Source: Candidatus Woesearchaeota archaeon (GTDB taxonomy: Archaea; Nanobdellota; Nanobdellia; Woesearchaeales; GW2011-AR4). From it: a DNA stretch of 17,914 nt. Shown one piece after another: positions 1,623 to 14,918 of this stretch. A model generated the notes under the pieces. That model saw only the letters and a list, made by a program, of their open reading frames with translations. It was not told the DNA's origin and did not search any database. Every line of letters starts with the position of its first letter. Positions within the stretch are counted from its first letter, which is position 1. The DNA lies in assembly GCA_030631975.1 (NCBI GenBank), contig DAOVKD010000002.1:1-17914 (forward strand). Direction: 5' to 3'. The position numbers were made by a program, and so were the translations under genes.

Positions 1623-2858
1623 TTATAATAAATTTCTAGTTGCTGCTCCTTTTAAAAAGCTTTCATAGACTCCCATTAATTTTTTTACAGAGTTTGTTAC
1701 ACTAAATTCTCGAGCTCTTTTTAATAATTTTTCTTTATTCCATTTTTTGTTCAAGGCTAATAATATTTTTTCTGCTAAATCATTTGCATCTTTTGGCCTT
1801 ACTAGGTAGCCAACATCCTTATTTACCAGCTCTGGCGTTCCTGCAACTTTTGTTGCTACTACGGGCTTTCCGCATGCTAACGCCTCGCATAGAACAACGG
1901 GCAAACCTTCATTTAGGCTAGGCAATACAAATATATCGCATGCATTCATATATTTTGCAACTTCTTTGCTGTTTTTTTCTCCTAAAAATTTTACATAGTT
2001 CTCCAGATTAAGTTCTACTGTTAATTTTTTTAAACTATTTTCCGTGTTTCCTTTACCTATAATACAACATAACACATTCTTATCTCTTTTCAAAAGCAGT
2101 TTTATTGCCCTAATAAGATATTTGACACCTTTTCTCGGTATCAAATGACCAACAAAAAGAATTATCTTCTTGTTTTTTGGCAAATTCAGAATTTCTCTTG
2201 ACTTGAATTTGTTCTTTGCTTTAAAATTACTTAACAAGGCTCCTGTAGTAATTATAAAGAACTTTTTCTTTGTTAGTCCTACCCTGTTTATTTCATTTTT
2301 TAGAAAACTGCTTTGGCTTATAATAGCATCTGAATTTTTTAAAGTCAATTTTGCCAAACTTTTTGAAAACATTTCTTTAGAAAACTTAGTTACATCTTCA
2401 CCCCAGACATTTACTAATAGTGGTTTGTTGTATTTTCTTTTTAACCTCAATCCAATTAGTCCATCAGCAAGCAGGCCATGTATATAGATAATATCCGGGT
2501 TCCATTCTTCTACTATTGTATCTGCAAGTTTTTTTGACGCTAAATAAGAAAACATGCTTTCAATGAACAAAAAAAAATTCAAAAATTTCGGAACAAATAG
2601 TATCCTTGGAAACATAAAATATTTTGGGTGATAAACAGCAATATTGTTAACCTTCTCTATTTCCGGCATTCGCGAATATTTGTAATATGGATTAAATAAT
2701 CTTATTTTTGGGGAATATAAATAAGGGAATAAAACCTTTATCTGGCAATATTTCTTTAACCCTTCTACCTGGTTTGAAATGAATGTAGTTGCAATAGGAT
2801 TATATTTTGTCGGGTATGAGTGAGTAATAACTAATAACCTTATTTTTCTTTTCATCAT
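1623..2858 (-). CDS. GT4 family glycosyltransferase (GT-B fold)
   Basis: A 411-residue retaining glycosyltransferase. The N-terminal domain starts RLLVITHSYPTKYNPIATTF with the conserved N-terminal loop. The C-terminal domain starts around FVGHLIPRKGVKYLIRAI and carries the donor-binding E-x7-E motif EGLPVVLCE (E317 and E325), followed by ACGKPVVAT and GTPELV. These are diagnostic of glycogen-phosphorylase/GT4 enzymes, which use nucleotide sugars. The length is typical for the family. Its ATG overlaps the stop of the upstream epimerase by four bases (ATGA), so the two are probably translationally coupled and the epimerase may supply its donor. No signal peptide is visible; it should act on the cytosolic face of the membrane. 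Confidence 0.92.
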   Translation of the reverse strand: MMKRKIRLLVITHSYPTKYNPIATTFISNQVEGLKKYCQIKVLFPYLYSPKIRLFNPYYKYSRMPEIEKVNNIAVYHPKYFMFPRILFVPKFLNFFLFIESMFSYLASKKLADTIVEEWNPDIIYIHGLLADGLIGLRLKRKYNKPLLVNVWGEDVTKFSKEMFSKSLAKLTLKNSDAIISQSSFLKNEINRVGLTKKKFFIITTGALLSNFKAKNKFKSREILNLPKNKKIILFVGHLIPRKGVKYLIRAIKLLLKRDKNVLCCIIGKGNTENSLKKLTVELNLENYVKFLGEKNSKEVAKYMNACDIFVLPSLNEGLPVVLCEALACGKPVVATKVAGTPELVNKDVGYLVRPKDANDLAEKILLALNKKWNKEKLLKRAREFSVTNSVKKLMGVYESFLKGAATRNLL

Positions 2859-3751
2859 AAGCTCTCTTCTATCATTTTTTTTAACCCACTATCCAATTTC
2901 AAAGGATTAATTCTAAATTTTGTACTTTTTGCTATGAAAGCTTTTACTTCCATTTTTCTATGTTTTTTCTTTATTATCTTCGATTTTGAATTTGTCATTT
3001 TAATCAATTTTTTTGCCAAGTTTTCTATAGTTATCCCTACTCCTGTGCCAATGTTTACAGTTTCTCCGATAAACTTATTGGTTCCGGATACCTGCAAAAT
3101 TGAGTTGATTACATCGTCTATCCAAACAAAATCAAGAACTTGTTTTCCACCAAACAATATTAAATCCTCCTTGTTTTTAATATTATTTAAAAAAATTGGT
3201 ATAACCCTGTTTTTGTCACGGCTGCCATAAACATTTGCAACTCTTAATATTGAAACTTTTAAGCCATGATTTTGTTTGAAAAAATTACATAGCATCTCCC
3301 CAGTCATTTTTGTTATTCCATAAATATTAACTGGCTTTAATGGGTGTTTTTCATCTACAGGGACATAGTCTGGATTCCCATAAACCTCTCTTGAAGAAAG
3401 AAAAATAAACTTTTTTCCCTTGCTTTCTGATGCAAATCTTAGTATTTTATAGGTTCCTTTTATATTGGTGCTTAGAGCATAGTCAGGATCAAAAAAAGAA
3501 CTCATAACATTTGACTGAGCAGCAAGATGATAAATAATATCTACTTTACCAATCTTTTCTATGTCCTTATCATTTCTTATATCCCCTTCAATCAATTCTA
3601 TACTCTTGTTTTTCAAATGCCTTTCAATATTTTCCTTCCTTCCATTATAGAAATTATCAAAAATTGTTATTTTATTGTCCCTATTCTTTGAAAGTTTATC
3701 TACTAAATGGCTTCCCATAAAGCCTGCTCCGCCTGTTATTAAGATGTTCAT
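2855..3751 (-). CDS. NAD-dependent sugar epimerase/dehydratase (extended SDR)
   Basis: A 298-residue extended short-chain dehydrogenase, full length for the family. The Rossmann motif is TGGAGFMGSHL (6-16), the acidic second-strand end is D32, and the active site is Y144-x3-K148 in YGITK with SSREVYG upstream. The family interconverts or dehydrates nucleotide sugars such as UDP-glucose or GDP-mannose. ATG 3751 is chosen because the Rossmann strand begins right after it and AAAGGA lies just upstream. An open frame back to 3853 would add 34 residues that read through the remains of the preceding gene and match nothing. It ends by overlapping the GT4 start. The exact substrate is unknown. Confidence 0.9.
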   Translation of the reverse strand: MNILITGGAGFMGSHLVDKLSKNRDNKITIFDNFYNGRKENIERHLKNKSIELIEGDIRNDKDIEKIGKVDIIYHLAAQSNVMSSFFDPDYALSTNIKGTYKILRFASESKGKKFIFLSSREVYGNPDYVPVDEKHPLKPVNIYGITKMTGEMLCNFFKQNHGLKVSILRVANVYGSRDKNRVIPIFLNNIKNKEDLILFGGKQVLDFVWIDDVINSILQVSGTNKFIGETVNIGTGVGITIENLAKKLIKMTNSKSKIIKKKHRKMEVKAFIAKSTKFRINPLKLDSGLKKMIEESL

Positions 3752-3755
3752 TTTA

Positions 3756-4269
3756 TTATCCTTTTTTTGAATTAAATGTCCTTTCATACAGTTTGCAGTA
3801 ATTTTCAGCAGCTTGTTTTGTTTATGCCATAAAGTGAAATTGGTTTTTGGCAATATTCTTCTGAAACAGGCAAGTCTTCTTCTTTTACTTTTCCAAATTG
3901 GGATCTAGTGCCGATAAAGATATATTTTGAGCTAGGATTTACTTTCTTTCTGGCTTCCAGGATGTTAAGTTGACCTTTACAATTGACTTCCAGATCAAGA
4001 TAAGGATCAAAAACATTACTGTCCTGAACAATAGCAGTAAGATTGATAATCACATCTTTATCTTTTATGCTTTCCTCAATAGCCTTGTAATCTGTTATGT
4101 CTCCTTCAATAAACCTGATTTTGTCTGCAAAATCCAATTTTTTTGCCTTAGCTGCATCTTTAGAGAATATGGCCATATAATTATCAAATTCAGATAGTTT
4201 TTTAGCTAAATGTAGTCCAATAAATCCTGAACCACCAATCAAAAGGATTTTTTGGTTTTTTAATTCCAT
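3756..4269 (-). pseudogene. Truncated and frameshifted NAD-dependent epimerase
   Basis: Only the N-terminal half of an extended SDR is present. It shows ILLIGGSGFIGLHLAKKL, IFIGTRSQFG and the active-site YGINK. Directly after YGINK the frame ends (TSC then TGA). Removing one A from the AACAAAACAAGC stretch near 3814 restores the expected continuation KQAAENYCKLYERTFNSKKG, which then stops at 3756. The whole C-terminal substrate domain, about 140 residues, is missing. The remnant therefore has two defects, a one-base frameshift and a 3' truncation. It ends five bases before the ATG of the intact epimerase, as if a deletion joined the two genes. The shared promoter and reading direction may explain why the 5' part survives. 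A sequencing error could explain the frameshift but not the missing half. Confidence 0.8.
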
Positions 4270-4360: not shown

Positions 4361-5734
4361 ATGAATATAGTGTTGATTGTGGTTGATGCTTTGCGTTCAG
4401 ACCATCTAAGCGTAAATGGATATGGCAGGAATACAAGCCCTAACATAGATAAACTGATAACAGAAGGCACTAGCTTTTCTAATGCTTTCACTGTACTGCC
4501 GAACAGCGAACCGACATTTGCGTCAATACTTACGGGAATGTACCCTCACTCACATGGTGTGAGGATGTTGTTTCATAACCAATTAAAACCTTCGATATCA
4601 ACTTTACAAGGGATATTAAAAAGCCATGATTATAGTACTGCATATACACGCTCCGGAAGGCCGCCAGATGATGGCACAGAAAAAAATTTTGATTTTTGTG
4701 ATCAACTACCATCAAAAATAAAGAATAAATTAAGAAGGATGTGCTATAAAATATTTCATCCTGGCACATACTTGGGGATGGCTGAACAGCAATTCAATAC
4801 AATGATAAGCTGGATAAAAAAACATTCTGATAAAAAATTCTTCTTTATGATACATACCAACGATTTGCACTGGCCATACCTCGCTCCGGAGCCTTACGAA
4901 AACATATTTGACCCTGATTACAAAGGAAAACATGATTTCGCTACTTTGGCAGAAGGAAAAATAGGCAGGGGGGAATTAATTTTTGGGCACAAAAAACTAT
5001 CCGAAGAAGAAATAAGACATGCTATAGCCCATTATGATGGTGGTTTAAGATATGTTGACATGCAAGTAGGAAAATTGCAAAAATTTCTGGAAACCAATGG
5101 TCTGTCGGAAGATACTTTGATAATCCTGACAGCAGACCATGGAGAGAATTTTGGAGAACATGATTATTACTTTCAACATGGGGAGCACCTATACAACACA
5201 GCCATAAAGGTACCTTTGGTGTTTAAAAATGCAAAAAAAATTCCAAAAAACAAAAAAATTACAAGTCTAGTGCAAACTTTGGATATAATGCCTACAGTAC
5301 TGGAACTCCTTAACATACCATTACTTGATAATATTGATGCTGTTAGCCTGATCCCTTTGATTAAGGGCAAGACAGACAAAGTCAGAGACTTTGCATTTGC
5401 AGAAAGTGTTGAAAATTATTTTAAAGGAAACAAGAGGGTATACTTTAAAGGGATTAAGGGTAAATGGAGAGCAATGATAGTAGATGAATGGAAAATAATC
5501 TACATCCCCCATCCAGGAAAAGATATCTTTGAGCTTTATAACTTAAGAGAAGATCCTAAAGAGAAGAACAACCTAATAGATAAGGAGAAAGAAAAAGCTG
5601 AAGAAATGAAAAAGAGAATATTAGATTATTTAAAGCCTCAAAGTGGAGAAGGGGATGCTAAAGTGGAAGATTTGAGCGAAAAATCCAGAAAATTGCTAAT
5701 TAAGGCAGGTTATATTGAAGAAGAATCTACATAA
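4361..5734 (+). CDS. Sulfatase/alkaline phosphatase superfamily hydrolase, Ser-nucleophile type
   Basis: A 457-residue member of the sulfatase fold. IVLIVVDALRSDHLSVNGYGRNTSPNID is the typical start with metal ligand D9. The second metal site is TADHGENFGEH (D259, H260), and the C-terminal YNLREDPKEKNNL is a sulfatase hallmark. The nucleophile position reads NSEPTFASILTG: Ser49 replaces the usual Cys, and the Arg of the C/S-x-P-x-R modification motif is Phe. Formylglycine formation is therefore doubtful, and hydrolysis or transfer of a phosphate, phosphodiester or phospho-alcohol group is more likely than classic sulfate removal. No signal peptide or membrane helix is visible. It has its own leaderless promoter, stands opposite the glycosyltransferase operon, and has a paralogue at 15926. 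Confidence 0.85.
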   Translation: MNIVLIVVDALRSDHLSVNGYGRNTSPNIDKLITEGTSFSNAFTVLPNSEPTFASILTGMYPHSHGVRMLFHNQLKPSISTLQGILKSHDYSTAYTRSGRPPDDGTEKNFDFCDQLPSKIKNKLRRMCYKIFHPGTYLGMAEQQFNTMISWIKKHSDKKFFFMIHTNDLHWPYLAPEPYENIFDPDYKGKHDFATLAEGKIGRGELIFGHKKLSEEEIRHAIAHYDGGLRYVDMQVGKLQKFLETNGLSEDTLIILTADHGENFGEHDYYFQHGEHLYNTAIKVPLVFKNAKKIPKNKKITSLVQTLDIMPTVLELLNIPLLDNIDAVSLIPLIKGKTDKVRDFAFAESVENYFKGNKRVYFKGIKGKWRAMIVDEWKIIYIPHPGKDIFELYNLREDPKEKNNLIDKEKEKAEEMKKRILDYLKPQSGEGDAKVEDLSEKSRKLLIKAGYIEEEST

Positions 5735-6092
5735 CTATTTTATGGCTTTTATTACCCAATTATCCCGCCTATACTTTCTTTGCTAAAAATTGTTTTTATA
5801 ACAATAATGTTTTATAAAAGTTTATCCAGAATACCCCGACTTTAATCGGATTTATTTTGGGAGTATGTTATTTTAACTTCTTTGAATTTCTCAAAAATTT
5901 TTTTACTTCTACTTTATGATATAATTTTGTTAATGGAGAGAAACCATAGACTCCTGAATATTTATTGATTAATTCCTGCATAGATATTCTTCTTAATCCT
6001 CTTCCTACCATTCCTGCTATTCCAACTCGGATTATGTAATGTTGCCATGACTTTGAATACGGCATGATAATGGCTTTTCCATTAGGCTTTAT
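5735..6092 (-). pseudogene. Degraded 3' half of a methyltransferase, paralogue of the gene at 13957
   Basis: The minus strand encodes KPNGKAII, YSKSWQHYIIRV, SMQELINKYS, VYGFSPLTKLY and VEVKKF, closely matching the C-terminal half of the intact methyltransferase at 13957-14784. After VKKF a missing T shifts the frame; in the other frame FEKFKEVKI continues the match. Further on, RGILDKL and finally KYRRDNWVIKAIK before TAG at 5737-5735 match the end of the intact protein, with extra stops and shifts between them. The SAM-binding half is absent. The left end directly abuts the sulfatase-like stop (5734). The right end meets an MFS fragment on the opposite strand at about 6085-6092. No function is expected. 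Confidence 0.85.
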
Positions 6093-6341: not shown

Positions 6342-8216
6342 ATGTGCGGAATATGCGGATTTAATTTTGAAGATAGAAAACTTGTCAAAGAGATGGCAGA
6401 TGTTCTTAGCCATAGAGGTCCTGATTCAGATGGAATTTATATAGATAAAAATATTTCACTGGGTCATAAGAGATTGAGTATTATTGACCTTTCTATTAAA
6501 GGAAAACAACCTATGGTTAATCAGGGAGGAAATCTTGTTATAGTCTATAATGGAGAAATCTACAATTTCAAGGAAATCAAGGCAGAACTTGAAAAAAAGG
6601 GATATAATTTTGTTTCTAACACTGACACAGAAGTTGTTTTGTATGCCTATGAACAATATGGTCCAAAATGTCTAGGATTATTCAACGGTATGTTTGCGTT
6701 TGCCATTTGGAATTCTACCAAAAAGGAATTGTTTATTGCCCGTGACAGAATTGGGATAAAACCATTACACTACTATTTTAAAGATTCTAAGTTTCTTTTT
6801 GCTTCTGAAATCAAAGCAATTCTGCAATGTAAAGATGTTAAAAGAACTATAAATGAGAACTGTTTAAAACAGCTTATTTATTATGCATATCCGATAAATG
6901 GGGAAACTATGCTTGAAGATATTGTAGAACTTAAACCCGGTCATTTTCTTGTATTGAAGGATAATAAGTTAATTACTAATACATATTGGGATTTGCATGT
7001 TAAGGAAACAAATAAGTCAGAAGATTTTTATGTCAAAAAACTTACAGAACTGCTTTTTGCATCAGTAAAGGGAAGATTAATAGCAGATGTACCCCTTGGT
7101 GTTTTATTGTCAGGAGGAATTGATTCTAGTGTTCTAGTTGCAATTGCAAGCAAAATCAAAGAGGAGCCTATCAAAACTTTTGCTGTAGGTTTTGACATAC
7201 CTGATGCAGAATTTGCTGCTGCTAAACTCGTAGCAGACCATTGTGGAACAGACCACAGGGAGATTCATTTAGATTATAAGGATTATATAAAGGCTATGCT
7301 AAAAGTTCTTTGGCATATGGAAATCCCTACATCACGGCCTGGTATGATACCATTTTATTACTTATCCAATAAAATAAGAGAATACCTTACTGTTAGCTTG
7401 TCAGGAGAAGGCGGAGATGAACTTTTTGCCGGATATAACAGGTATGATGCATATACAAAACTTCCAGAAAAATCTTTTGTAGAAGATACCTCTTATTATG
7501 AATCATTAAAAAGAAAAATAAATATGCCCCTTAAGGAAAAAATAGAATATGTTGCTTCTGGAGTTTTTAATAAGGACAAGGAGGAGTTTTTTACTGAAGA
7601 GACCTTAAGATTACCTGACAATATAAATGTACATAATACTTTTGGCCCATTAATAAGAAACACAAAAAATGACGGGAGCCAGCTCAATAAGACCTTATTT
7701 TACGAATTAAAAACAGAGATACCTTATTTCCATTGCAATAAACTAGATAAGACAAGCATGGCAAATTCCAATGAGATCAGGGTCCCTTACCTTGACCATA
7801 CTGTTGTTGAATTTGCAATGACTATTCCATCCAAGTATAAGTTTTATGGCAGGGAGAAAAAAATAATCCTGCAAAAAGTAGCAAAGCCTTTACTTCCCAA
7901 AGAGACAGTCAGGAGAAGAAAATTACCTTTAGTTGTACCTTTAACCAGTTTTATTGAGGATGAATTCATTAGCATGGCAAATAGCTTGCTCTCGGAAAGA
8001 ATTCTTAAGAAAAGATCTTATTATAAAATACCCCGGATTAAAAAATTAATAGAGGCTATTAAGGCTAGACAAACCTTAGAGGATAAATCCAGAGTCACTC
8101 AGGATAATGCATATAGGCAGCTGCTGTTTTTTACAAATTTAGAGCTTTGGATTAAATTATTTATCGAGAATGATAATATAAAAAATCCGAATTTATCTAT
8201 TAAGGCATACTTATAA
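6342..8216 (+). CDS. asnB: Asparagine synthetase B-like glutamine amidotransferase
   Basis: A 624-residue two-domain enzyme. The N-terminal class II glutaminase domain starts with the nucleophile Cys2 in MCGICGF and keeps R44, the N70-G71-E72 loop and D95. It releases ammonia from glutamine. The synthetase domain carries the PP-loop SGGIDSS (257-263), which adenylates a carboxylate, and later SLSGEGGDELFAGYNRY. ATG 6342 is fixed by the need for Cys at position 2. The family makes asparagine, but long AsnB forms in glycan loci are often thought to amidate uronic acids or other carboxylated sugars. Here it sits between two degraded genes and an antisense six-gene cassette, so a biosynthetic glycan role is plausible but not shown. 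It converges with the GAPDH-like gene. Confidence 0.9.
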   Translation: MCGICGFNFEDRKLVKEMADVLSHRGPDSDGIYIDKNISLGHKRLSIIDLSIKGKQPMVNQGGNLVIVYNGEIYNFKEIKAELEKKGYNFVSNTDTEVVLYAYEQYGPKCLGLFNGMFAFAIWNSTKKELFIARDRIGIKPLHYYFKDSKFLFASEIKAILQCKDVKRTINENCLKQLIYYAYPINGETMLEDIVELKPGHFLVLKDNKLITNTYWDLHVKETNKSEDFYVKKLTELLFASVKGRLIADVPLGVLLSGGIDSSVLVAIASKIKEEPIKTFAVGFDIPDAEFAAAKLVADHCGTDHREIHLDYKDYIKAMLKVLWHMEIPTSRPGMIPFYYLSNKIREYLTVSLSGEGGDELFAGYNRYDAYTKLPEKSFVEDTSYYESLKRKINMPLKEKIEYVASGVFNKDKEEFFTEETLRLPDNINVHNTFGPLIRNTKNDGSQLNKTLFYELKTEIPYFHCNKLDKTSMANSNEIRVPYLDHTVVEFAMTIPSKYKFYGREKKIILQKVAKPLLPKETVRRRKLPLVVPLTSFIEDEFISMANSLLSERILKKRSYYKIPRIKKLIEAIKARQTLEDKSRVTQDNAYRQLLFFTNLELWIKLFIENDNIKNPNLSIKAYL

Positions 8217-8244: not shown

Positions 8245-9294
8245 CTAATTACTATCTTTTTCAAATAGAATATTTATCAGATTAACTATTCTACAGCTGT
8301 ATCCCCATTCATTATCATACCATAAAATGAGCTTTAAATAATTACCATCATTCACTGAAGTCCATCGATGGTCGATAATAGCAGAGTATTCCATACCTTT
8401 GAAGTCTATTGAGACAAGGGGCTCATAATTATTATAAAAAATCTTATATTTCTGTTTTTTTGCTTCATTCTCAAATAAGCGTTTAATTTCTTCGGCTATA
8501 GCCTTTTTATTCAGCTTGACTGAGATATCTGCGGATGAAACACTGGCAGTTGGAACCCTATAAGAGAATGAATAAAATTTACCTTTCAAAAATTTTAATA
8601 TTTTACAAGTCGCATCAATGGCAGTGGTTGGTTTTGGCAATAAAGAAAAGGTACTTGCACGTCCAAAGGTGTAATGTGAATCAATATGTCCTGGGTAAGC
8701 AAAAGATGCTGTTGGCCCGTCTAAAAGATTCTGGTATTGAAGCCACGGATGCAATGTAGTCATAAACCCATGATTAATTCCATATTCTCTGTTTAATACA
8801 TTAATTACTGGGGCAAAGGCATTGGCATCACAAATACTGTTTGATATAATCAAGTCATTTTTAACATCAATTTCATTTTCGTTTACCCCCACAATAATAA
8901 ATCTGTCAACTAATTTTTCTTCCGGGGAGTACGAAATTACAACTTGCTTTACCCTATCTTTAAGCTTTCTTGCTCTAACTGTGTTATTGTGGACTCCAGA
9001 AGAGTCAACAACTCGTGTTGCATTATGTTTGTCCCATGGTACTTCATCAATATTTTTTTCATGATAAACAAAAATCTTTTTTCCATCTACAATAATCCCA
9101 GATTCATCAGAATTGATTTCTTTGTCGAGTCTGCCATATAAAGAATCATATTTTAATTGATAAGCTATATTTTTGTTGTCTGGGTTGATATCGTTAATAA
9201 CAATAATATCAAAATTTTTACTCTCTAATACTTTTCTAAATATTGCTCTTCCAATTCTACCAAATCCATTTATCCCAACAAACCTTTTTTCCAT
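8245..9294 (-). CDS. Divergent GAPDH-family dehydrogenase
   Basis: A 349-residue protein of the bacterial/eukaryotic GAPDH type, not the distinct archaeal type. The NAD-binding start is VGINGFGRIGR (6-16), with D35 at the end of the second strand suggesting NAD. Catalytic Cys155 in SNSICDAN and His182 in TTLHPWLQYQ are kept, and WYDNEWGYSCR near the end is canonical. The Cys-Thr-Thr of GAPDH is Cys-Asp-Ala, the His-x-x-Thr-x-Asp segment is H-P-W-L-Q-Y, and the Thr-Gly loop reads PKPTTAI. Both phosphate-anion sites are thus altered, so glyceraldehyde 3-phosphate is an unlikely substrate. ATG 9294 is preferred over the in-frame TTG at 9351 because it precedes the Rossmann strand and has a TATA element at the leaderless distance. 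It is last in the six-gene cassette. Confidence 0.85.
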   Translation of the reverse strand: MEKRFVGINGFGRIGRAIFRKVLESKNFDIIVINDINPDNKNIAYQLKYDSLYGRLDKEINSDESGIIVDGKKIFVYHEKNIDEVPWDKHNATRVVDSSGVHNNTVRARKLKDRVKQVVISYSPEEKLVDRFIIVGVNENEIDVKNDLIISNSICDANAFAPVINVLNREYGINHGFMTTLHPWLQYQNLLDGPTASFAYPGHIDSHYTFGRASTFSLLPKPTTAIDATCKILKFLKGKFYSFSYRVPTASVSSADISVKLNKKAIAEEIKRLFENEAKKQKYKIFYNNYEPLVSIDFKGMEYSAIIDHRWTSVNDGNYLKLILWYDNEWGYSCRIVNLINILFEKDSN

Positions 9295-9314
9295 GAGAGG
9301 AGGAACTTTTGCGG

Positions 9315-9325
9315 ATTTAAAAAAC
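9315..9325 (-). promoter_or_regulatory. Putative internal TATA box before the GAPDH-like gene
   Basis: On the minus strand GTTTTTTAAAT is centred about 25 bases before ATG 9294, just after the stop of the nucleotidyltransferase gene (9341). It suggests that the GAPDH-like gene can be transcribed on its own as a leaderless message, and it supports the choice of start. Confidence 0.45.
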
Positions 9326-9340
9326 TTCCTAAAAATTATT

Positions 9341-10069
9341 TTATCCTTCAATTCGCTTTAGTTCTTCAGTGGCTCTTTTCAAATCTCCAGGGGTGTCAAT
9401 ATCCATGCAAAATGAGCCATCTGCTATTACAGGCATTACATTTTCTATTTGGCACAATTCCTCTATTGGTACATTAAAAGGCAAGTCAGTTTCACCTTTT
9501 AAAAAATGGTTTTCTATTATCTTATAGATTTTTTTTGCTGTACCTAATTTAAGTTTATAGAATCCTGGCGCAGTACCATATACTTTATTTTTATCCATTT
9601 TTTTCTTAATCTCTTTTATTCTTCCATTAACTAGAGAAATCTTTAATTCATCATCCCTTTGTTTTGCCTTCTCACTTGTATCAACAAGTATGCTTGCATC
9701 ATGTTTTGACATGAGGATTTTTTTTACATTGTCTTTTGAAATGATAACATCACCAGGGGTAAATACCAGATCGTCATTAATATATTCTCGTACAGCCCAT
9801 AAACTTGACATATTGCCTTTCGTATGATAATATTCATTAAATACATAAATAATTTCTACACCATTATATTTGCTCCCAATTGCCCTTTTAATAAGTTCAG
9901 CCTGATAGCCAATTACAATGATTATTTTCTTTATGCCTTTCTGGACTGCACTATCCAGCACTCTTTTAAGCAGTGCCTTCCCATTTATTTCAAGCAATAA
10001 TTTTGGTTTTCCTTTGGTCAGGTCTTTTAACCTTGTGCCCTCTCCTGCTGCACAAACAACTATAATCAT
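9341..10069 (-). CDS. Nucleotidyltransferase of the NTP_transferase family, LicC-like
   Basis: A 242-residue single-domain protein with the pyrophosphorylase signature AAGEGTRLKDLTKGKPK (7-23). VIGYQAELIK follows, then the segment N-EYYHTKGNMSSLWAVR, and the metal-binding D107 in TPGDV. The pattern of a Gly-Asn-Met-Ser-Ser-Leu segment and the short length without a hexapeptide domain resemble small-substrate cytidylyltransferases. These include LicC (phosphocholine), inositol-phosphate and phosphonate cytidylyltransferases, rather than GlmU or RmlA. It should couple a phosphorylated compound to an NTP, giving an activated donor. Its ATG overlaps the SDR stop by four bases, so the two are probably co-translated. 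Neither the base nor the phosphate substrate can be read from sequence. Confidence 0.85.
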   Translation of the reverse strand: MIIVVCAAGEGTRLKDLTKGKPKLLLEINGKALLKRVLDSAVQKGIKKIIIVIGYQAELIKRAIGSKYNGVEIIYVFNEYYHTKGNMSSLWAVREYINDDLVFTPGDVIISKDNVKKILMSKHDASILVDTSEKAKQRDDELKISLVNGRIKEIKKKMDKNKVYGTAPGFYKLKLGTAKKIYKIIENHFLKGETDLPFNVPIEELCQIENVMPVIADGSFCMDIDTPGDLKRATEELKRIEG

Positions 10070-10785
10070 AAGAATTCAGCCTCAGATGATGATGTCAACA
10101 CTACCTGTTCCATCACTACATTTTTCGGTTGAGTTGCTATGAATAATGCAATGTCTGCTATAGTATCTGGTTGCAATACTTTTTTTCTCTCCTTTTCTGA
10201 CGGCACTTTTGACCTCGTCAATAATAATTCAGTATTTACTGTTGCTGGAGCAATTATAGATGCCCTAATGCCATTTTTCGCTTCTTCAAGATTTATTGAT
10301 CTTACTAGGGAAAACAATGCTTTCTTTGTTGCGGAATATGCTACTCCAGATAATGTGGATGTTCTTACTCCAGCACTAGAGCCTATATGAATTATTGTTC
10401 CTCCACCAGATTTCCTTAATTCATTTATGATTGCACGACTTACATTTATAGCCCCTGTTAAATTTGTTGATATAATTTCCTCTGTTTTTTTAGCGTCCAT
10501 ATTTTCTATATCTCTGTTAGGGGTATTGATGCCTGCAGAATTAATCAAAACCTTAACGTCATAATTATTTTCTTTGATGTATTTGACCATGTTCTCTATA
10601 CTCTCACTTGACCTTATGTCCATTACTGTACATGAGCATTTTTCACCTATCTCTTTTGAAACTTCTTCCAGTCTTTCCTTGTTTCTGCCTGCTATGACTA
10701 CTTTATGGCCATTTTCACAAAACTTTATGGCACAGGCTTTTCCAATACCTGATCCACCTCCAACAATTAAAGTGATATCTTCCAT
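10066..10785 (-). CDS. Classical short-chain dehydrogenase/reductase
   Basis: A 239-residue oxidoreductase. The cofactor loop is VGGGSGIGK (8-16), the AGRN segment at 32-35 with Arg34 favours NADP(H), and NSAG is at 82-85. The catalytic tetrad is N108, S137, Y150 and K154 (in VAYSATKKAL). The length is standard. SDRs of this type reduce ketones on sugars, cyclitols or acyl chains; in this cassette a cyclic ketone from the upstream cyclase would be a sensible substrate, which is inference. It has its own TATA element, lies 90 bases downstream of the glycerate-kinase gene and overlaps the nucleotidyltransferase by ATGA. Confidence 0.87.
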   Translation of the reverse strand: MEDITLIVGGGSGIGKACAIKFCENGHKVVIAGRNKERLEEVSKEIGEKCSCTVMDIRSSESIENMVKYIKENNYDVKVLINSAGINTPNRDIENMDAKKTEEIISTNLTGAINVSRAIINELRKSGGGTIIHIGSSAGVRTSTLSGVAYSATKKALFSLVRSINLEEAKNGIRASIIAPATVNTELLLTRSKVPSEKERKKVLQPDTIADIALFIATQPKNVVMEQVVLTSSSEAEFL

Positions 10786-10804
10786 AGTATATCTAGAATT
10801 GACA

Positions 10805-10817
10805 CTATATTAAAAAC
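10805..10817 (-). promoter_or_regulatory. Putative TATA box of the SDR-nucleotidyltransferase pair
   Basis: On the minus strand GTTTTTAATATAG is centred about 26 bases upstream of ATG 10785, within the 90-base gap after the glycerate-kinase gene. The spacing fits a leaderless transcript that starts a second transcription unit inside the cassette. Confidence 0.45.
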
Positions 10818-10875
10818 TTTTCTTTAGAAATATCTCTTAGAATTAGTTTGTACACTATCTGCCTGATTACTTCGC

Positions 10876-12168
10876 TTATTTCTCAAACATAAATACATAG
10901 ACATCTGAGACATTTGTTCCTGTCAGGCCTCCTTCTAAAAGAGTGTTTAATTTTTTATGTAGGTGAAAGGTATTATAAGTTTTGAGATATTCATCAACAT
11001 CTATATTTTTTTCTTTGACTTTTTTTATTGTTTCATTTGTTATTATAGCTCCTCTTACCCCATGAAGATAATCACGTCCATCTGTGGCAAAGGACACAAA
11101 CACAAAATTATCAAGTCCTTTTAGCTTTTTGATTATTATAGCAGCCAGATGCTGGTTTCTTCCACCTTTTCCCTTCTTATGTAATTTAACAGGGATTTCT
11201 CCTCCAGCTACAACTGCATATAACCCCTTTTCTGAAACACTTTCATATTTTCCCTTAAAATATTGTGCTAGTTTATCTGTTGCTTGTTCAATATCCCTGT
11301 AAAAAAATTCATCTATCATCCAGACATTTTTACATCCTGAATTTGTCAGGTGCTTTACCAGACTTTTTTTTGCTGTTGTATTGTCTCCAATAAGCACATT
11401 TTTTATCTTTAAATTTGTAAAATCATTTTTCTTTTTTGATTGCTTATCTATTATATTTTTTATTTTTGCAGGGGCGGAGTCATAAACTCCATATTCTTTA
11501 AGCACCTGCTTAGCTGTTTTTTTGTCTGTGGGTATTAAAGTGGGTCCTGAAGCAATAGCGCTGATGTCTCCCCCGTTGTCTAACAAGAGCATGTTAATAA
11601 TCTGCGTACCTTCTAACTTTTTGGCTATTTTCCCGCCTTTTACCCCCGAGATGGCCTTTCTGACAGTATTTACTTCTATTTCGGGGATTCCTTTAAGTAT
11701 AAGGAAATTTATAAAACCCAGCTTTTCCTTAAAGCCAAGCCTTTCCTCTGGATAAGACATCAATGCAGAACCCCCGCCAGACAATAAACTGATCACTATA
11801 TCTTTCCTATCAATTTTTTTCAGAAATTCTACCATCTCTTTGCCAGCTAAAAAACTCTTTTTTGATATAAATGGGTGTGTGGAATGGACTATTCTAATTT
11901 TCTTTGTATCGGAAGAGATATCGGGAGCAATAACAAGGCCTTCCTTTATGTTTTCCAGACCAAGTATTTTTTCTATTGTTTCAGACATAGAAACTCCTGC
12001 CTTACCGCAACCAATAATAAAGATGTCAGCATTAGATAAATCAAAGGATTCATTATCGACTATTAACTTGTTTTCTTTTATTGAGATATGTTCTTTTAAT
12101 AATAGAGAAGGGTGTATGCCAGACAACATCTTTTCCAACAATTCTTTTATTTTTGCCCTGTTTGTCAT
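10876..12168 (-). CDS. Glycerate 2-kinase, MOFRL family
   Basis: A 430-residue protein with the full set of MOFRL-type glycerate kinase motifs. These are IIGCGKA (51-57, with the catalytic Lys56), the STHPF and SLLSGGGSALMSYP loops, SGVKGGK, SGPT, then in the C-terminal MOFRL domain VAGGE, GGRNQH, FATDGRD and LTGTNVSDVYV. The family phosphorylates D-glycerate to 2-phosphoglycerate with ATP in the cytosol. Nothing catalytic appears missing. The usual role is in serine, tartrate or sugar-acid breakdown. Here it lies in a glycan cassette 26 bases after a VOC gene, so it may phosphorylate glycerate for a surface modification, or a related hydroxy-acid or polyol. The family call is secure; the substrate in this setting is not. 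Confidence 0.9.
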   Translation of the reverse strand: MTNRAKIKELLEKMLSGIHPSLLLKEHISIKENKLIVDNESFDLSNADIFIIGCGKAGVSMSETIEKILGLENIKEGLVIAPDISSDTKKIRIVHSTHPFISKKSFLAGKEMVEFLKKIDRKDIVISLLSGGGSALMSYPEERLGFKEKLGFINFLILKGIPEIEVNTVRKAISGVKGGKIAKKLEGTQIINMLLLDNGGDISAIASGPTLIPTDKKTAKQVLKEYGVYDSAPAKIKNIIDKQSKKKNDFTNLKIKNVLIGDNTTAKKSLVKHLTNSGCKNVWMIDEFFYRDIEQATDKLAQYFKGKYESVSEKGLYAVVAGGEIPVKLHKKGKGGRNQHLAAIIIKKLKGLDNFVFVSFATDGRDYLHGVRGAIITNETIKKVKEKNIDVDEYLKTYNTFHLHKKLNTLLEGGLTGTNVSDVYVFMFEK

Positions 12169-12194
12169 AGTAAAAAGAATTTTTAGCGGCCTTT

Positions 12195-12629
12195 TTAATT
12201 TACTTCAATCAACTCAATAGTATTCGAATCAGGGTCTTCTATATAGACCATGTGCTTTCCTTTATTTGGTCCAGCAGGTATTTCAAGAGGGTCACCTACG
12301 AATTTCACTTTTTTCTCCTTTAGCTTTTTTATCATTTCATGGAAATTATCTATATTGAAACATATATGGGCGCTCCCCACATTGCATAGTCTTGTATCAA
12401 TATTCTCTCCTTTTGGGGAAAGGTATTGGATGAGTTCAAGTGCACAGTTTCCTCCTTCGAGATAGGCAATATTCAAGTGAGCATCCTTTATTCCTGTTGC
12501 TTTTTCTGAAAATTCTTTCGGCCTTTCGGTTATATTACTAATCTCTAACCCCAATACATCATGATAGAATTTTACAGACCTATCTAAATCACTTACAGTG
12601 AAGCTCATGTGGTTAATGTTCTTTATCAT
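12195..12629 (-). CDS. VOC superfamily (glyoxalase fold) enzyme
   Basis: A 144-residue protein with two beta-alpha-beta-beta-beta modules. HMSFTVSDLDRSVKFYHDVL (7-26) is the first module and SAHICFNIDNF starts the second; VYIEDPDSNTIELIEV closes it. The four metal positions of the fold are filled by H7, E65, H88 and E139. The family includes glyoxalase I, methylmalonyl-CoA epimerase, dioxygenases and the cyclitol epimerase ValD, so the reaction is open. It starts two bases after the stop of the sugar phosphate cyclase gene, which suggests that both act in one route; isomerisation or epimerisation of the cyclase product is an attractive guess. It is unlikely to be a simple methylglyoxal detoxification enzyme in this context. 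Confidence 0.85.
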   Translation of the reverse strand: MIKNINHMSFTVSDLDRSVKFYHDVLGLEISNITERPKEFSEKATGIKDAHLNIAYLEGGNCALELIQYLSPKGENIDTRLCNVGSAHICFNIDNFHEMIKKLKEKKVKFVGDPLEIPAGPNKGKHMVYIEDPDSNTIELIEVN

Positions 12630-12631
12630 TG

Positions 12632-13777
12632 TTATTTATTTATGTAGACTAACTTATCTTTTTTTAAAAATGCAGCGCAATCAGATATAATGTAATCATA
12701 ATTTTTCATAAACCCCTCCAAAAATGCTTTTACAGCATCAGGTGTTGTCGCATAAAAAATCTTTCCATCTTTTTCATATGGTTTCTCAATACCGCTAATC
12801 AGCACAAGATCCATGCCATGCGCAGATGACTTCTTATCACGCATCATCAATTCTACCCATTTATCAATATTTATATTTTTTTCTATGCAGATATTCAAAC
12901 CAATCTTCTTCATCAAATTGATGATTTTTAGAACTTCTTCTTTAGTTATTAACCCTTTTTTTTCTGCAAAATTTAATGCAACAACAGTGCCGGCACTAAT
13001 GGCATCTCCATGCAAAATCCTGAAATCCGACATTTTCTCAATAGCATGCCCGAATGTATGGCCCAAATTACTTACTAATGGGTGTTTCTTCCTAATCTTT
13101 ACCCGTGTTTCAATAGACAATTTAATTATATTCATTAAGATATCATTAGGGGGGAGTTGCCCATATTTTTCCAATAGTGATATTAACTTTTCAGAACTGA
13201 GAAGACCATATTTGAACACTTCAGAGTACCCTTGCCTCAAATGGTATTTTGTATTTGTTTTCAGGAAATGAATATTGTTATATGATATTATGGGATAATA
13301 AAATGTTCCTAAAACATTCTTGCTTTCTTTTGTATTCAAGCAGGTTTTACCAGCAGTTGATGCGTCAATCTGGCCAATTAATGTTGTGGGTATTGTGATG
13401 AAAGGCAACCCCCTCATGTATGTTGATGTTGCAAAGCTGACCAAATCTATAATTATGCCTCCGCCGATTGCAATAACCAGGTCTGCTAAGTTACATTTAT
13501 TTTTTTCAAGAAAGTCAATCAATTTTGGGTAAAAATCAAGAGACTTATTTTGCTCTATCGCTTCAACTTTGAAGAAAAATGATTCTTTGTCATGTGTTTC
13601 TAATTTTTTCCTGAGCAAATTGCCCCATAATTTGTCAACTTCTTTGTCAATAACGATGAAAAATCTGCTGAAATTATTGCTATCAAATGTCGATATCCAG
13701 TCCATATTTTCATCATCATCAATAATGAAATTGATTGTGTCTTCTTTTGTGTACGTTGTTGAAAATTTCTTAATCAT
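12632..13777 (-). CDS. Dehydroquinate-synthase-like sugar phosphate cyclase
   Basis: A 381-residue member of the sugar phosphate cyclase superfamily (dehydroquinate, epi-valiolone and deoxy-inosose synthases). The NAD site is AIGGGIIIDLVSFA (103-116). TYMRGLPFITIPTTLIGQID, then ASTAGKT with D138 and K144, K153-N154, and the metal ligands E186, H240 (in NLGHTFGH) and H256 (in LHGDA) are all present. Counted against the Aspergillus enzyme, K219 matches K250, but the position of R264 is P233, in HPLVSN. The active site is therefore complete except for one substrate contact, arguing for a product other than dehydroquinate. It lies beside glycan genes rather than shikimate genes, heads the six-gene cassette, and has its own leaderless-type promoter. 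Confidence 0.82.
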   Translation of the reverse strand: MIKKFSTTYTKEDTINFIIDDDENMDWISTFDSNNFSRFFIVIDKEVDKLWGNLLRKKLETHDKESFFFKVEAIEQNKSLDFYPKLIDFLEKNKCNLADLVIAIGGGIIIDLVSFATSTYMRGLPFITIPTTLIGQIDASTAGKTCLNTKESKNVLGTFYYPIISYNNIHFLKTNTKYHLRQGYSEVFKYGLLSSEKLISLLEKYGQLPPNDILMNIIKLSIETRVKIRKKHPLVSNLGHTFGHAIEKMSDFRILHGDAISAGTVVALNFAEKKGLITKEEVLKIINLMKKIGLNICIEKNINIDKWVELMMRDKKSSAHGMDLVLISGIEKPYEKDGKIFYATTPDAVKAFLEGFMKNYDYIISDCAAFLKKDKLVYINK

Positions 13778-13923: not shown

Positions 13924-13956
13924 AAGAACATTGGTTTTATTAACCTTAAAAATTAC

Positions 13957-14784
13957 CTATTTAATAGCCTTTATTACCCAATTGCCCTGAAGATATTTTC
14001 TGTTTTTCAAGGATTTTATCTTTTGCATTATTCCATTTTTATCTGGAACCTTATAGTGCCAATGGGAAACATCAACCTGACTGAATTTTGTGAAAAAACT
14101 TTTCACTTCTTTTCTGCTGTATAATTTAGTCAATGGTGAAAAGCCATAGGCTTCAGAATATTTGTTTATTAATTCTTGCATGGACATTCTGAATAACTCC
14201 CTTCCAATAATTCCTGCATAAAAAACTCTTATTACATAATGTTGCCAGCTTTTTGAATAAAGCATAACTATTGCTTTACCTCCAGGTTTCAATATTCTAC
14301 ATATTCCATTAATCGCTTTTTGAGTATTAGGCGTATGGTGTAAAACTCCCATAGAATAAACTAAATCAAAAGTATTGTCATCAAACTTCAGATTTTCTGC
14401 ATCCATTACTTGCAATTCTGCTTTAAGACCATAAATCTCAAAAACGCGTTTAGCTTTATTAACAGCACCCTCTGTTAAATCAATGCCATAGCAAATAGCT
14501 CCATTTTTGGAGTACTGCTTTAAGTCTAACCCCATACCTATACCTACCTCTAAAACTTTTTCTCCCTTATGCTCTGAGAACTCTGCTATTTTAGGTATGT
14601 AAGGGGAGAAAATATTATACCGCTTGTAGTCTATATCGTCATAATACTCCTTTTCACCTGTTTTTTGTTTTGAATACCATTGGCCTGGCTGTTTATCATT
14701 CCAGTATCTCCTGATATCATTCTTTAAAGCATCCTTTAATGGAGAATCCTGTTGAATACTAAATGGATTATTTTGTTCAATCAT
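13957..14784 (-). CDS. Class I SAM-dependent methyltransferase
   Basis: A 275-residue protein. Motif I is VLEVGIGMGLDL (77-88), followed by CYGIDLTEGAV, then FDLVYSMGVLHHTPNTQKA (motif post-I/II) and RILKPGGKAIVMLYS, all typical of the methyltransferase 11 family. An N-terminal IRRYWNDKQPGQWYSKQK segment and a long C-terminal region with SMQELINKYSEAYGFSPLTK set its subgroup, seen with sugar biosynthesis genes. ATG 14784 is preferred: a GGGGGT precedes it and a TATA element lies about 30 bases upstream. In-frame ATGs at 14799 and 14898 would add 5 or 38 residues not typical of the family. A degraded copy of its 3' half is at 5735. The acceptor is unknown; a glycan or lipid-linked intermediate is likely from context. 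Confidence 0.87.
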   Translation of the reverse strand: MIEQNNPFSIQQDSPLKDALKNDIRRYWNDKQPGQWYSKQKTGEKEYYDDIDYKRYNIFSPYIPKIAEFSEHKGEKVLEVGIGMGLDLKQYSKNGAICYGIDLTEGAVNKAKRVFEIYGLKAELQVMDAENLKFDDNTFDLVYSMGVLHHTPNTQKAINGICRILKPGGKAIVMLYSKSWQHYVIRVFYAGIIGRELFRMSMQELINKYSEAYGFSPLTKLYSRKEVKSFFTKFSQVDVSHWHYKVPDKNGIMQKIKSLKNRKYLQGNWVIKAIK

Positions 14785-14809
14785 ATACTTTACCCCCATA
14801 TATATTCTT

Positions 14810-14820
14810 CTTAAAAATAG
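14810..14820 (-). promoter_or_regulatory. Putative TATA box of the methyltransferase at 14784
   Basis: On the minus strand CTATTTTTAAG is centred about 31 bases upstream of ATG 14784. A second candidate, GATTTAAAAAG, lies some 30 bases further upstream. The spacing supports the shorter protein form. Confidence 0.35.
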
Positions 14821-14918
14821 GGCAGAACTATTAGGACTTTTTAAATCTTTTGCGACTTGGATACTGTTAACTCTTCGACATATGGAATATTTAGGCAATA
14901 TTTATGAGAAACAAAATC

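Follow-up and report, generated by a model that had tools for sequence, protein, structure and literature searches.

What might six tightly packed genes of an uncultured archaeon be making, when two of the encoded enzymes resemble AroB and glyceraldehyde-3-phosphate dehydrogenase (GAPDH)? This question is raised by a cassette at positions 8245 to 13777 of contig DAOVKD010000002.1 (G000:C104 in our numbering) from a Candidatus Woesearchaeota archaeon (assembly GCA_030631975.1; 937 kb, 64% complete). The window analyzed here is this entire contig of 17,914 bases. The probable output of the six genes is one unusual activated building block, or two, for cell-surface sugars. Our tentatively preferred reading is that the cassette consists of surface-glycan building-block genes in two modules, module A with a GAPDH variant, a MOFRL-family kinase, and a nucleotidyltransferase, and module B with a sugar phosphate cyclase, a vicinal oxygen chelate (VOC) protein, and a short-chain dehydrogenase/reductase (SDR). 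If this is true, the activated building blocks made by archaea in this phylum extend beyond the usual nucleotide sugars. Two enzymes are singled out, a cyclase with a pocket that fits no described specificity among those compared and a GAPDH subfamily encoded near glycerate-kinase-type genes; given their sequence likeness to AroB and GAPDH, automatic annotation could misassign such proteins to central metabolism in uncultured archaea.

All six open reading frames (ORFs) lie on the minus strand. In the order of reading, they encode a sugar phosphate cyclase of the 3-dehydroquinate (DHQ) synthase superfamily (12632 to 13777; Pfam DHQ_synthase, 3.4e-31), a VOC-superfamily protein that is a candidate epimerase or isomerase (12195 to 12629; Glyoxalase, 7.8e-19), a MOFRL-family (class II glycerate kinase) enzyme (10876 to 12168; DUF4147, 1.1e-47, and MOFRL, 1.3e-26), an SDR (10066 to 10785; adh_short, 8.4e-46), a LicC-like nucleotidyltransferase that is a candidate cytidylyltransferase (9341 to 10069; NTP_transf_3, 1.7e-12), and the GAPDH-family variant (8245 to 9351; Gp_dh_C, 1.5e-31). 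The gaps are 2 bases between the cyclase and VOC genes, 26 between VOC and MOFRL, and 90 between MOFRL and SDR; the SDR and nucleotidyltransferase genes overlap by 4 bases and the nucleotidyltransferase and GAPDH variant genes by 11. The last overlap depends on a TTG start of the GAPDH variant, since the possible ATG start at 9294 would leave a 46-base gap. Around the cassette, Pfam identifies two glycosyltransferases, a MurJ/MatE-type flippase, two sulfatase-superfamily proteins, an AsnB-type protein, and a methyltransferase. The original prediction had placed the six families at these positions and on this strand, with two gene pairs separated by 2 bases or overlapping by 4, a LicC-like nucleotidyltransferase, and glycosyltransferases and a flippase nearby; the ORF list and Pfam bear out each of these points, and the best Protein Data Bank (PDB) match of the nucleotidyltransferase by sequence is indeed 1jyk, the CTP:phosphocholine cytidylyltransferase LicC.

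The GAPDH homologue departs from its family at the active site. It reads ICDAN at SCTTN and HPWL at HAYT, with L at position 179 and T at 209, while the Cys, the His, T208, and R231 are retained, and it falls under the NCBIfam cut-off for type I GAPDH (TIGR01534; 270 versus 367 bits). An ordinary glycolytic GAPDH is ruled out by the residues at SCTTN/HAYT, 179, and 209. Among 17 distinct GAPDH-family ORFs, 15 have CTTN, T179, and G209, the exceptions being those of the window and of genome G048. A third variant, reached via the MOFRL gene of genome G351, has TCDAV and HPYL; C149, H176, T208, R231, and N313 are retained in all three. When a profile of the three variants was run against 371 genomes of the phylum, they scored 596, 562, and 528 bits, values that are high by construction because these three are rows of the profile, and the scores then dropped to 317. 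Residues were read for the top three and for the next-best 27 loci, and these 27 all keep C149, T150, T151, T179, and G209. The variants of the window, G048, and G351 form one group in a 39-row tree (Shimodaira-Hasegawa-like approximate likelihood ratio test [SH-aLRT], 97.8), and another tree groups two of the three (99/97.9). By their residues, the three are a subfamily in which the catalytic Cys and His are kept and positions of both phosphate sites are changed. Because positions that we take to be phosphate binding in GAPDH (T179, T208, G209, and R231) include changed ones, the variant may be an aldehyde dehydrogenase that works without a substrate phosphate or inorganic phosphate. A GAPDH gene beside a MOFRL gene was rejected as a signal by itself: genome G100 has such a pair with a canonical GAPDH, so that the adjacency means little.

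The MOFRL enzyme passes Pfam for both of its domains (DUF4147, 162.9 bits against a cut-off of 23; MOFRL, 93.3 against 28.3), matches PDB entries 1x3l and 2b8n, and deviates at just 3 otherwise uniform columns of a 10-row alignment. It is below the cut-offs of two NCBIfam glycerate 2-kinase equivalogs (NF041176, 182 versus 550 bits; NF040791, 170 versus 670), the names of which suggest models specific for other archaeal groups. The MOFRL kinase of T. tenax forms 2-phosphoglycerate as its sole product and was glycerate specific among the compounds tried, refusing sugar acids, glycerol, glyceraldehyde, and others; according to its authors, all class II glycerate kinases characterized until then form 2-phosphoglycerate, and the available part of their report names no cyclitol among the acceptors of MOFRL kinases (PMC2063504). 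Further PDB matches of the nucleotidyltransferase are 6pd1 and 2xme, with inositol-1-phosphate cytidylyltransferase among the nearest, and the nucleotidyltransferase of G048 is also nearest to 1jyk. We take 6pd1 to be PntC. The adenylyltransferase model NF001947 gives the window enzyme 26.3 bits, against 104.6 for AglF. Jointly, the 2-phosphoglycerate chemistry of MOFRL kinases and the LicC-type PDB matches of the nucleotidyltransferase would point to a glycerate linked to cytidine diphosphate (CDP). Methylmalonyl-CoA epimerase and glyoxalase I are among the PDB matches of the VOC protein. Viral contigs gave three weak matches to the nucleotidyltransferase and none to the MOFRL enzyme.

Recurrence was assessed by genome-wide queries with four of the six proteins, the cyclase, GAPDH, MOFRL, and nucleotidyltransferase proteins. 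Among 99 genomes, that of the window being one, relatives of the cyclase were found in 27, of GAPDH in 78, of MOFRL in 6, and of the nucleotidyltransferase in 89. In the 371 genomes, MOFRL was found in 9 and the cyclase in 36, and both were present in only the window's own genome and G048, where the cyclase gene is on a different contig and its product shows the complete DHQ-synthase pattern. MOFRL occurs in 1 of the 36 genomes of the window's own family, its own genome, and in 6 of 99 relatives of G048. Searches of 35 neighborhoods around cyclase, GAPDH, and MOFRL matches with 15 window proteins found more than two of the six families only in G048 and all six in none. The co-occurrence of the six families elsewhere, on which the original prediction had set store, did not emerge: among up to 371 genomes searched, the full set was met with only in the window, although parts of it recur.

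What recurs is parts of module A. In G048 (L069, G048:C140, 8167 to 13648), a relative in which two ORFs look by eye like archaeal ribosomal protein L3 and DNA primase, the genes for the nucleotidyltransferase (37% identical) and the MOFRL enzyme (35%) overlap by 4 bases, and a GAPDH-HAD fusion gene is convergent with them. Flanking the three are genes for a histidine phosphatase and for a CDP-alcohol phosphatidyltransferase whose best NCBIfam score, under the cut-off, is to archaetidylinositol phosphate synthase. In G351 (L190, G351:C64, 1668 to 7247), genes for the GAPDH variant, an RtcB-like protein, a protein that joins the C-terminal domain of glycosyltransferase-28 to MOFRL, and an aldo/keto reductase lie on one strand. 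A MOFRL gene is thus close to the GAPDH variant in all three genomes, and a LicC-like nucleotidyltransferase gene in two of them. Because the GAPDH variant and MOFRL recur in G048 and G351 with no cyclase gene nearby, we regard them as a separable module. At 43 further cyclase loci (about 1.5 kb on each side), non-cyclase window proteins matched at two places only, the methyltransferase in L178 and the flippase and SDR in L180 and L223, which are the same place in genome G177.

The cyclase was compared in a set of 70 sequences comprising that of the window, AroB of E. coli and S. suis, an annotated 2-deoxy-scyllo-inosose synthase (DOIS), two annotated sedoheptulose-7-phosphate cyclases, a cyclase from a cyanobacterium whose gene adjoins that of an O-methyltransferase, a family member from Streptomyces, and relatives from the searches. 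The full 13-residue DHQ-synthase pattern, numbered as we take it to be in A. nidulans DHQ synthase, is present in 61 of the 70. The window cyclase has 11 of the 13 (R130, D146, K152, N162, E194, K197, N268, H271, H275, H287, and K356); K250 is replaced by Arg, and R264 falls inside a six-residue deletion relative to E. coli AroB. None of the other 69 sequences has this pattern, the eight others that deviate doing so differently. Eleven of the 13 positions are those listed, in the available part of the source, for the S. aureus pocket that binds 3-deoxy-D-arabino-heptulosonate 7-phosphate (DAHP) (PMC6262012); of these, the window cyclase keeps nine, with Arg at the position of Lys221 and the position of Arg235 deleted. 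It is also under the NCBIfam cut-off for the AroB equivalog (TIGR01357; 248 versus 305 bits). We take S. aureus Lys221 and Arg235 to be A. nidulans K250 and R264, the pair that presumably binds the DAHP carboxylate in the A. nidulans structure. The four sedoheptulose-7-phosphate cyclases (EEVS/DDGS) compared have K250M, N268D or A, H275P, and a replaced K356, a signature missing from the window cyclase, which retains N268, H275, and K356; nor does it have R264G, N268E, and K356N of DOIS, as represented by a single annotated Streptomyces member (L132). As far as its residues tell, the pocket matches no described specificity among those compared.

An AlphaFold model of the window cyclase (pLDDT, 85.0; pTM, 0.86) has DHQ synthases as its top matches, followed closely by other cyclases. 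In a 66-row tree (the 70 minus four near-identical Bacteroidaceae rows), a group of nine rows (SH-aLRT, 95) unites the window cyclase with L136, three rows of DHQ-synthase pattern, and the sedoheptulose-7-phosphate cyclases, and a tree of 33 rows hand-picked from the 66 separates it, together with L136 and the sedoheptulose-7-phosphate cyclases, from the DHQ synthases (97/90). With three long rows removed, no starred group contains it, and its union with the sedoheptulose-7-phosphate cyclases is not rejected (approximately unbiased test [p-AU], 0.66); a 33-row clade test (p-AU, 0.033) was set aside, as its constraint fixed the side of the DOIS row as well. The tree position is unstable. A separate locus, L161 (G261:C40), has an 871-amino-acid ORF in which a DHQ synthase is fused to a half that by eye is 5-enolpyruvylshikimate-3-phosphate (EPSP) synthase-like.

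Cyclase cassettes of a similar kind exist elsewhere in the phylum. In G177, a genome of the same class (L192, G177:C12, 6380 to 9830), genes for a kinase-like protein, a cyclase, an SDR, and a nucleotidyltransferase-like protein each overlap the next, beside a flippase gene. The kinase-like protein resembles choline kinase weakly and falls short of the Pfam cut-off, the cyclase has sedoheptulose-7-phosphate cyclase residues, and the nucleotidyltransferase-like protein belongs to no Pfam family and matches PDB entry 4evw (2.1e-16). RuBisCO large-chain and IF-2B-family genes lie approximately 3 to 6 kb from these genes. In G136 (L191, G136:C86, 377 to 5850), a cyclase gene is found near genes for a PfkB kinase, a CDP-alcohol phosphatidyltransferase, a flippase-like protein, and a MocA-type oxidoreductase. 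This cyclase groups with DOIS in the 33-row tree (98/97); it also passes the DHQ-synthase cut-off (319.5 versus 305 bits) and could be a DHQ synthase after all. Both cassettes have the same kind of logic as that of the window and are not orthologous to it. Because G177 and G136 carry cyclase cassettes of similar logic, a cyclitol role of the window cyclase becomes more likely.

For the two modules, the genes, the altered residues, the genomic setting, and the recurrence of module A parts in the absence of module B are observed, whereas we infer substrates, products, the order of the steps, and cytidine triphosphate (CTP) as the donor. In module A, the GAPDH variant would oxidize an unphosphorylated aldehyde, for example D-glyceraldehyde, and from the resulting acid the MOFRL kinase would form 2-phosphoglycerate, which the nucleotidyltransferase would couple with CTP to yield a CDP-linked glycerate for transfer to a glycan. 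The product of the adjoining AsnB gene might convert such an acid to its amide. D-Glyceramide 2-phosphate occurs in bacterial O-antigens, and the term glyceramide was absent from the open-access literature matches listed. In module B, the cyclase would close a sugar phosphate without a DAHP-type carboxylate to give a cyclitol ketone, which the VOC protein may epimerize and the SDR may reduce.

The AsnB-type glutamine amidotransferase, a possible partner by way of amidation, is encoded at 6342 to 8216 on the plus strand, convergent with the cassette, and is assigned by Pfam and by an NCBIfam score of 498 bits (TIGR01536; cut-off, 267). Its best match among 59 genomes, its own gene aside, is in G048 (44% over residues 1 to 613), and some other matches are 50 to 52% identical over the first ~370 residues. 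At the other end, the cassette adjoins a minus-strand methyltransferase gene (13957 to 14898; Pfam Methyltransf_11), the 3' end of which is repeated: a degraded copy at 5732 to 6089 corresponds to 13954 to 14289 (direct repeats D1, 71%, and D2, 77%). The two copies are 8.2 kb apart and bracket the AsnB gene and the six-gene cassette; they may mark the route by which this block was inserted or duplicated. The G+C content of the window, 0.325, compares with 0.32 to 0.37 in own contigs (17 of 20 sampled; the other three were all N, yet kept in the tetranucleotide reference). Tetranucleotide correlation does not discriminate bin membership (window, 0.65; own contigs, 0.39 to 0.69; other genomes, 0.11 to 0.67). 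No Rfam family at gathering score and no tRNA were detected in the window. Farther off, an epimerase-like ORF of 154 amino acids (3805 to 4269) slightly overlaps a longer epimerase-like ORF (2855 to 3853) and by eye looks like a remnant.

The evidence leans toward two modules with a recurring core of GAPDH variant and MOFRL kinase, the other live reading being a single pathway. Several observations weigh against the two modules. Six genes on one strand with near-operon spacing argue for one pathway, and no neighbor at any locus proves a substrate. The phosphate-site residues T208 and R231 are still present in the GAPDH variants, and these stand on long branches, joins of which, the tree program warns, may be false. 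The proximity of MOFRL in all three genomes is partly ascertainment, as the variants were found via the cassette or via MOFRL neighbors; six of the nine MOFRL genomes have no GAPDH variant, and G351 has no match to the window nucleotidyltransferase in the 12 kb read. The best NCBIfam score of that nucleotidyltransferase is to AglF, an enzyme using uridine triphosphate (104.6 bits; cut-off, 400), and the Lys-to-Arg change of the cyclase, together with its short basic loop RVKIRKKH, could still bind a carboxylate. In a single linear route, which we consider a less likely but serious alternative, the cyclase, VOC protein, MOFRL kinase, SDR, and nucleotidyltransferase would lead to a nucleotide-activated cyclitol, and the GAPDH variant would oxidize or reduce one of the intermediates. 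Besides the tight one-strand layout, it has in its favor the overlapping G177 genes with their sedoheptulose-7-phosphate-type cyclase, the DOIS-like grouping of the G136 cyclase near the PfkB, CDP-alcohol transferase, and MocA genes, and the use of the same logic in acarbose biosynthesis, with cyclase, kinase, epimerase, reductase, and nucleotidyltransferase in the part of the source available (PMC9200736). It is opposed by the GAPDH variant and MOFRL in G048 and G351 without a nearby cyclase, by the restriction of MOFRL plus cyclase to 2 of the 371 genomes, by the glycerate 2-kinase activity of the MOFRL kinases characterized in the available part of PMC2063504, and by the G136 cyclase score above the DHQ-synthase cut-off, by which that protein may be a DHQ synthase. 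A more specific version is in our estimate unlikely; in it, an undescribed archaeal pathway would use all six enzymes to supply the cell surface with a carbocyclic acid or cyclitol linked to CDP, the cyclase would have a new substrate specificity, and the enzyme derived from GAPDH would have given up glyceraldehyde 3-phosphate. The original prediction of one coherent six-gene route is weakened by the separability of the GAPDH variant and MOFRL and by the glycerate specificity reported in PMC2063504, and its series of cyclization, isomerization, phosphorylation, reduction, and activation gives the GAPDH homologue, which is not an ordinary GAPDH, no role. Support exists for its gene identities and glycan-cluster setting, as well as in the altered cyclase, the cytidylyltransferase-like activator, and the G177 and G136 cassettes; the membership of all six genes in one pathway is not supported.

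It seems improbable that a variable glycan cluster has gathered these genes loosely and that none but neighboring pairs share a pathway. The full set was seen once, and the methyltransferase-end repeats that flank the AsnB gene and the cassette are a sign of rearrangement, but the tight one-strand spacing and the recurrence of module A parts in two other genomes speak against mere accumulation. Less probable still is that the cyclase is a divergent DHQ synthase and that the cassette feeds shikimate-type metabolism: the cyclase is below the TIGR01357 cut-off of 305, its R264 is deleted and its K250 changed where 61 of the 70 cyclases in the comparison show every signature residue, and the 13 Pfam-scanned ORFs of the window include no other shikimate enzyme family, except that the SDR matches Shikimate_DH weakly, at the cut-off.

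Among the open-access PMC matches listed, no title concerns this gene set, one paper (PMC8976061) mentions GAPDH solely as the name of a promoter, and none of three known systems, as far as the available parts of their descriptions go, has this set of enzymes: acarbose biosynthesis (PMC9200736), CDP-6-glucitol biosynthesis (PMC10918830), and the ebo operon (PMC5133447). The ebo operon, with EboD, likewise has an uncharacterized non-DHQS cyclase in a cluster of unknown product; its partner families in the available account (UbiA superfamily, metallo-dependent hydrolase, and xylose-isomerase-like) are absent from the 13 Pfam-scanned window ORFs (PMC5133447), whereas the window does carry Phosphodiest/Sulfatase-type proteins. 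The CDP-6-D-glucitol system of Campylobacter jejuni HS:5, an example of the CDP-alditol donor pathways, likewise pairs a cytidylyltransferase with a reductase of SDR fold within a surface-polysaccharide cluster but, in the part available, differs in that its enzyme uses fructose 6-phosphate and its two enzymes are assigned to other Pfam families, PF01128 and PF01370 (PMC10918830). With the tail of the nonphosphorylative Entner-Doudoroff pathway, the proposed module A would have in common the oxidation of an aldehyde followed by a MOFRL kinase; there, as the available part describes it, the glyceraldehyde oxidizers are NAD(P) or ferredoxin dependent and not of the GAPDH family, one cited title placing the NAD(P)-dependent glyceraldehyde dehydrogenases in the aldehyde dehydrogenase superfamily, and no nucleotide activation follows (PMC2063504). 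The activation of C7-cyclitols for acarbose and validamycin (AcbC/ValA, AcbO, AcbM, AcbL, and AcbR/ValB) differs in that the window cyclase is without sedoheptulose-7-phosphate cyclase residues, the kinase is of the MOFRL family, and a GAPDH variant is present; in the available part of that source, the AcbR/ValB-type nucleotidyltransferase is similar to glucose-1-phosphate adenylyltransferase (PMC9200736). Common to both are the cyclase, the reductase, and the nucleotidyltransferase, and the likeness extends to the kinase-family gene and the candidate VOC epimerase of the window (PMC9200736).

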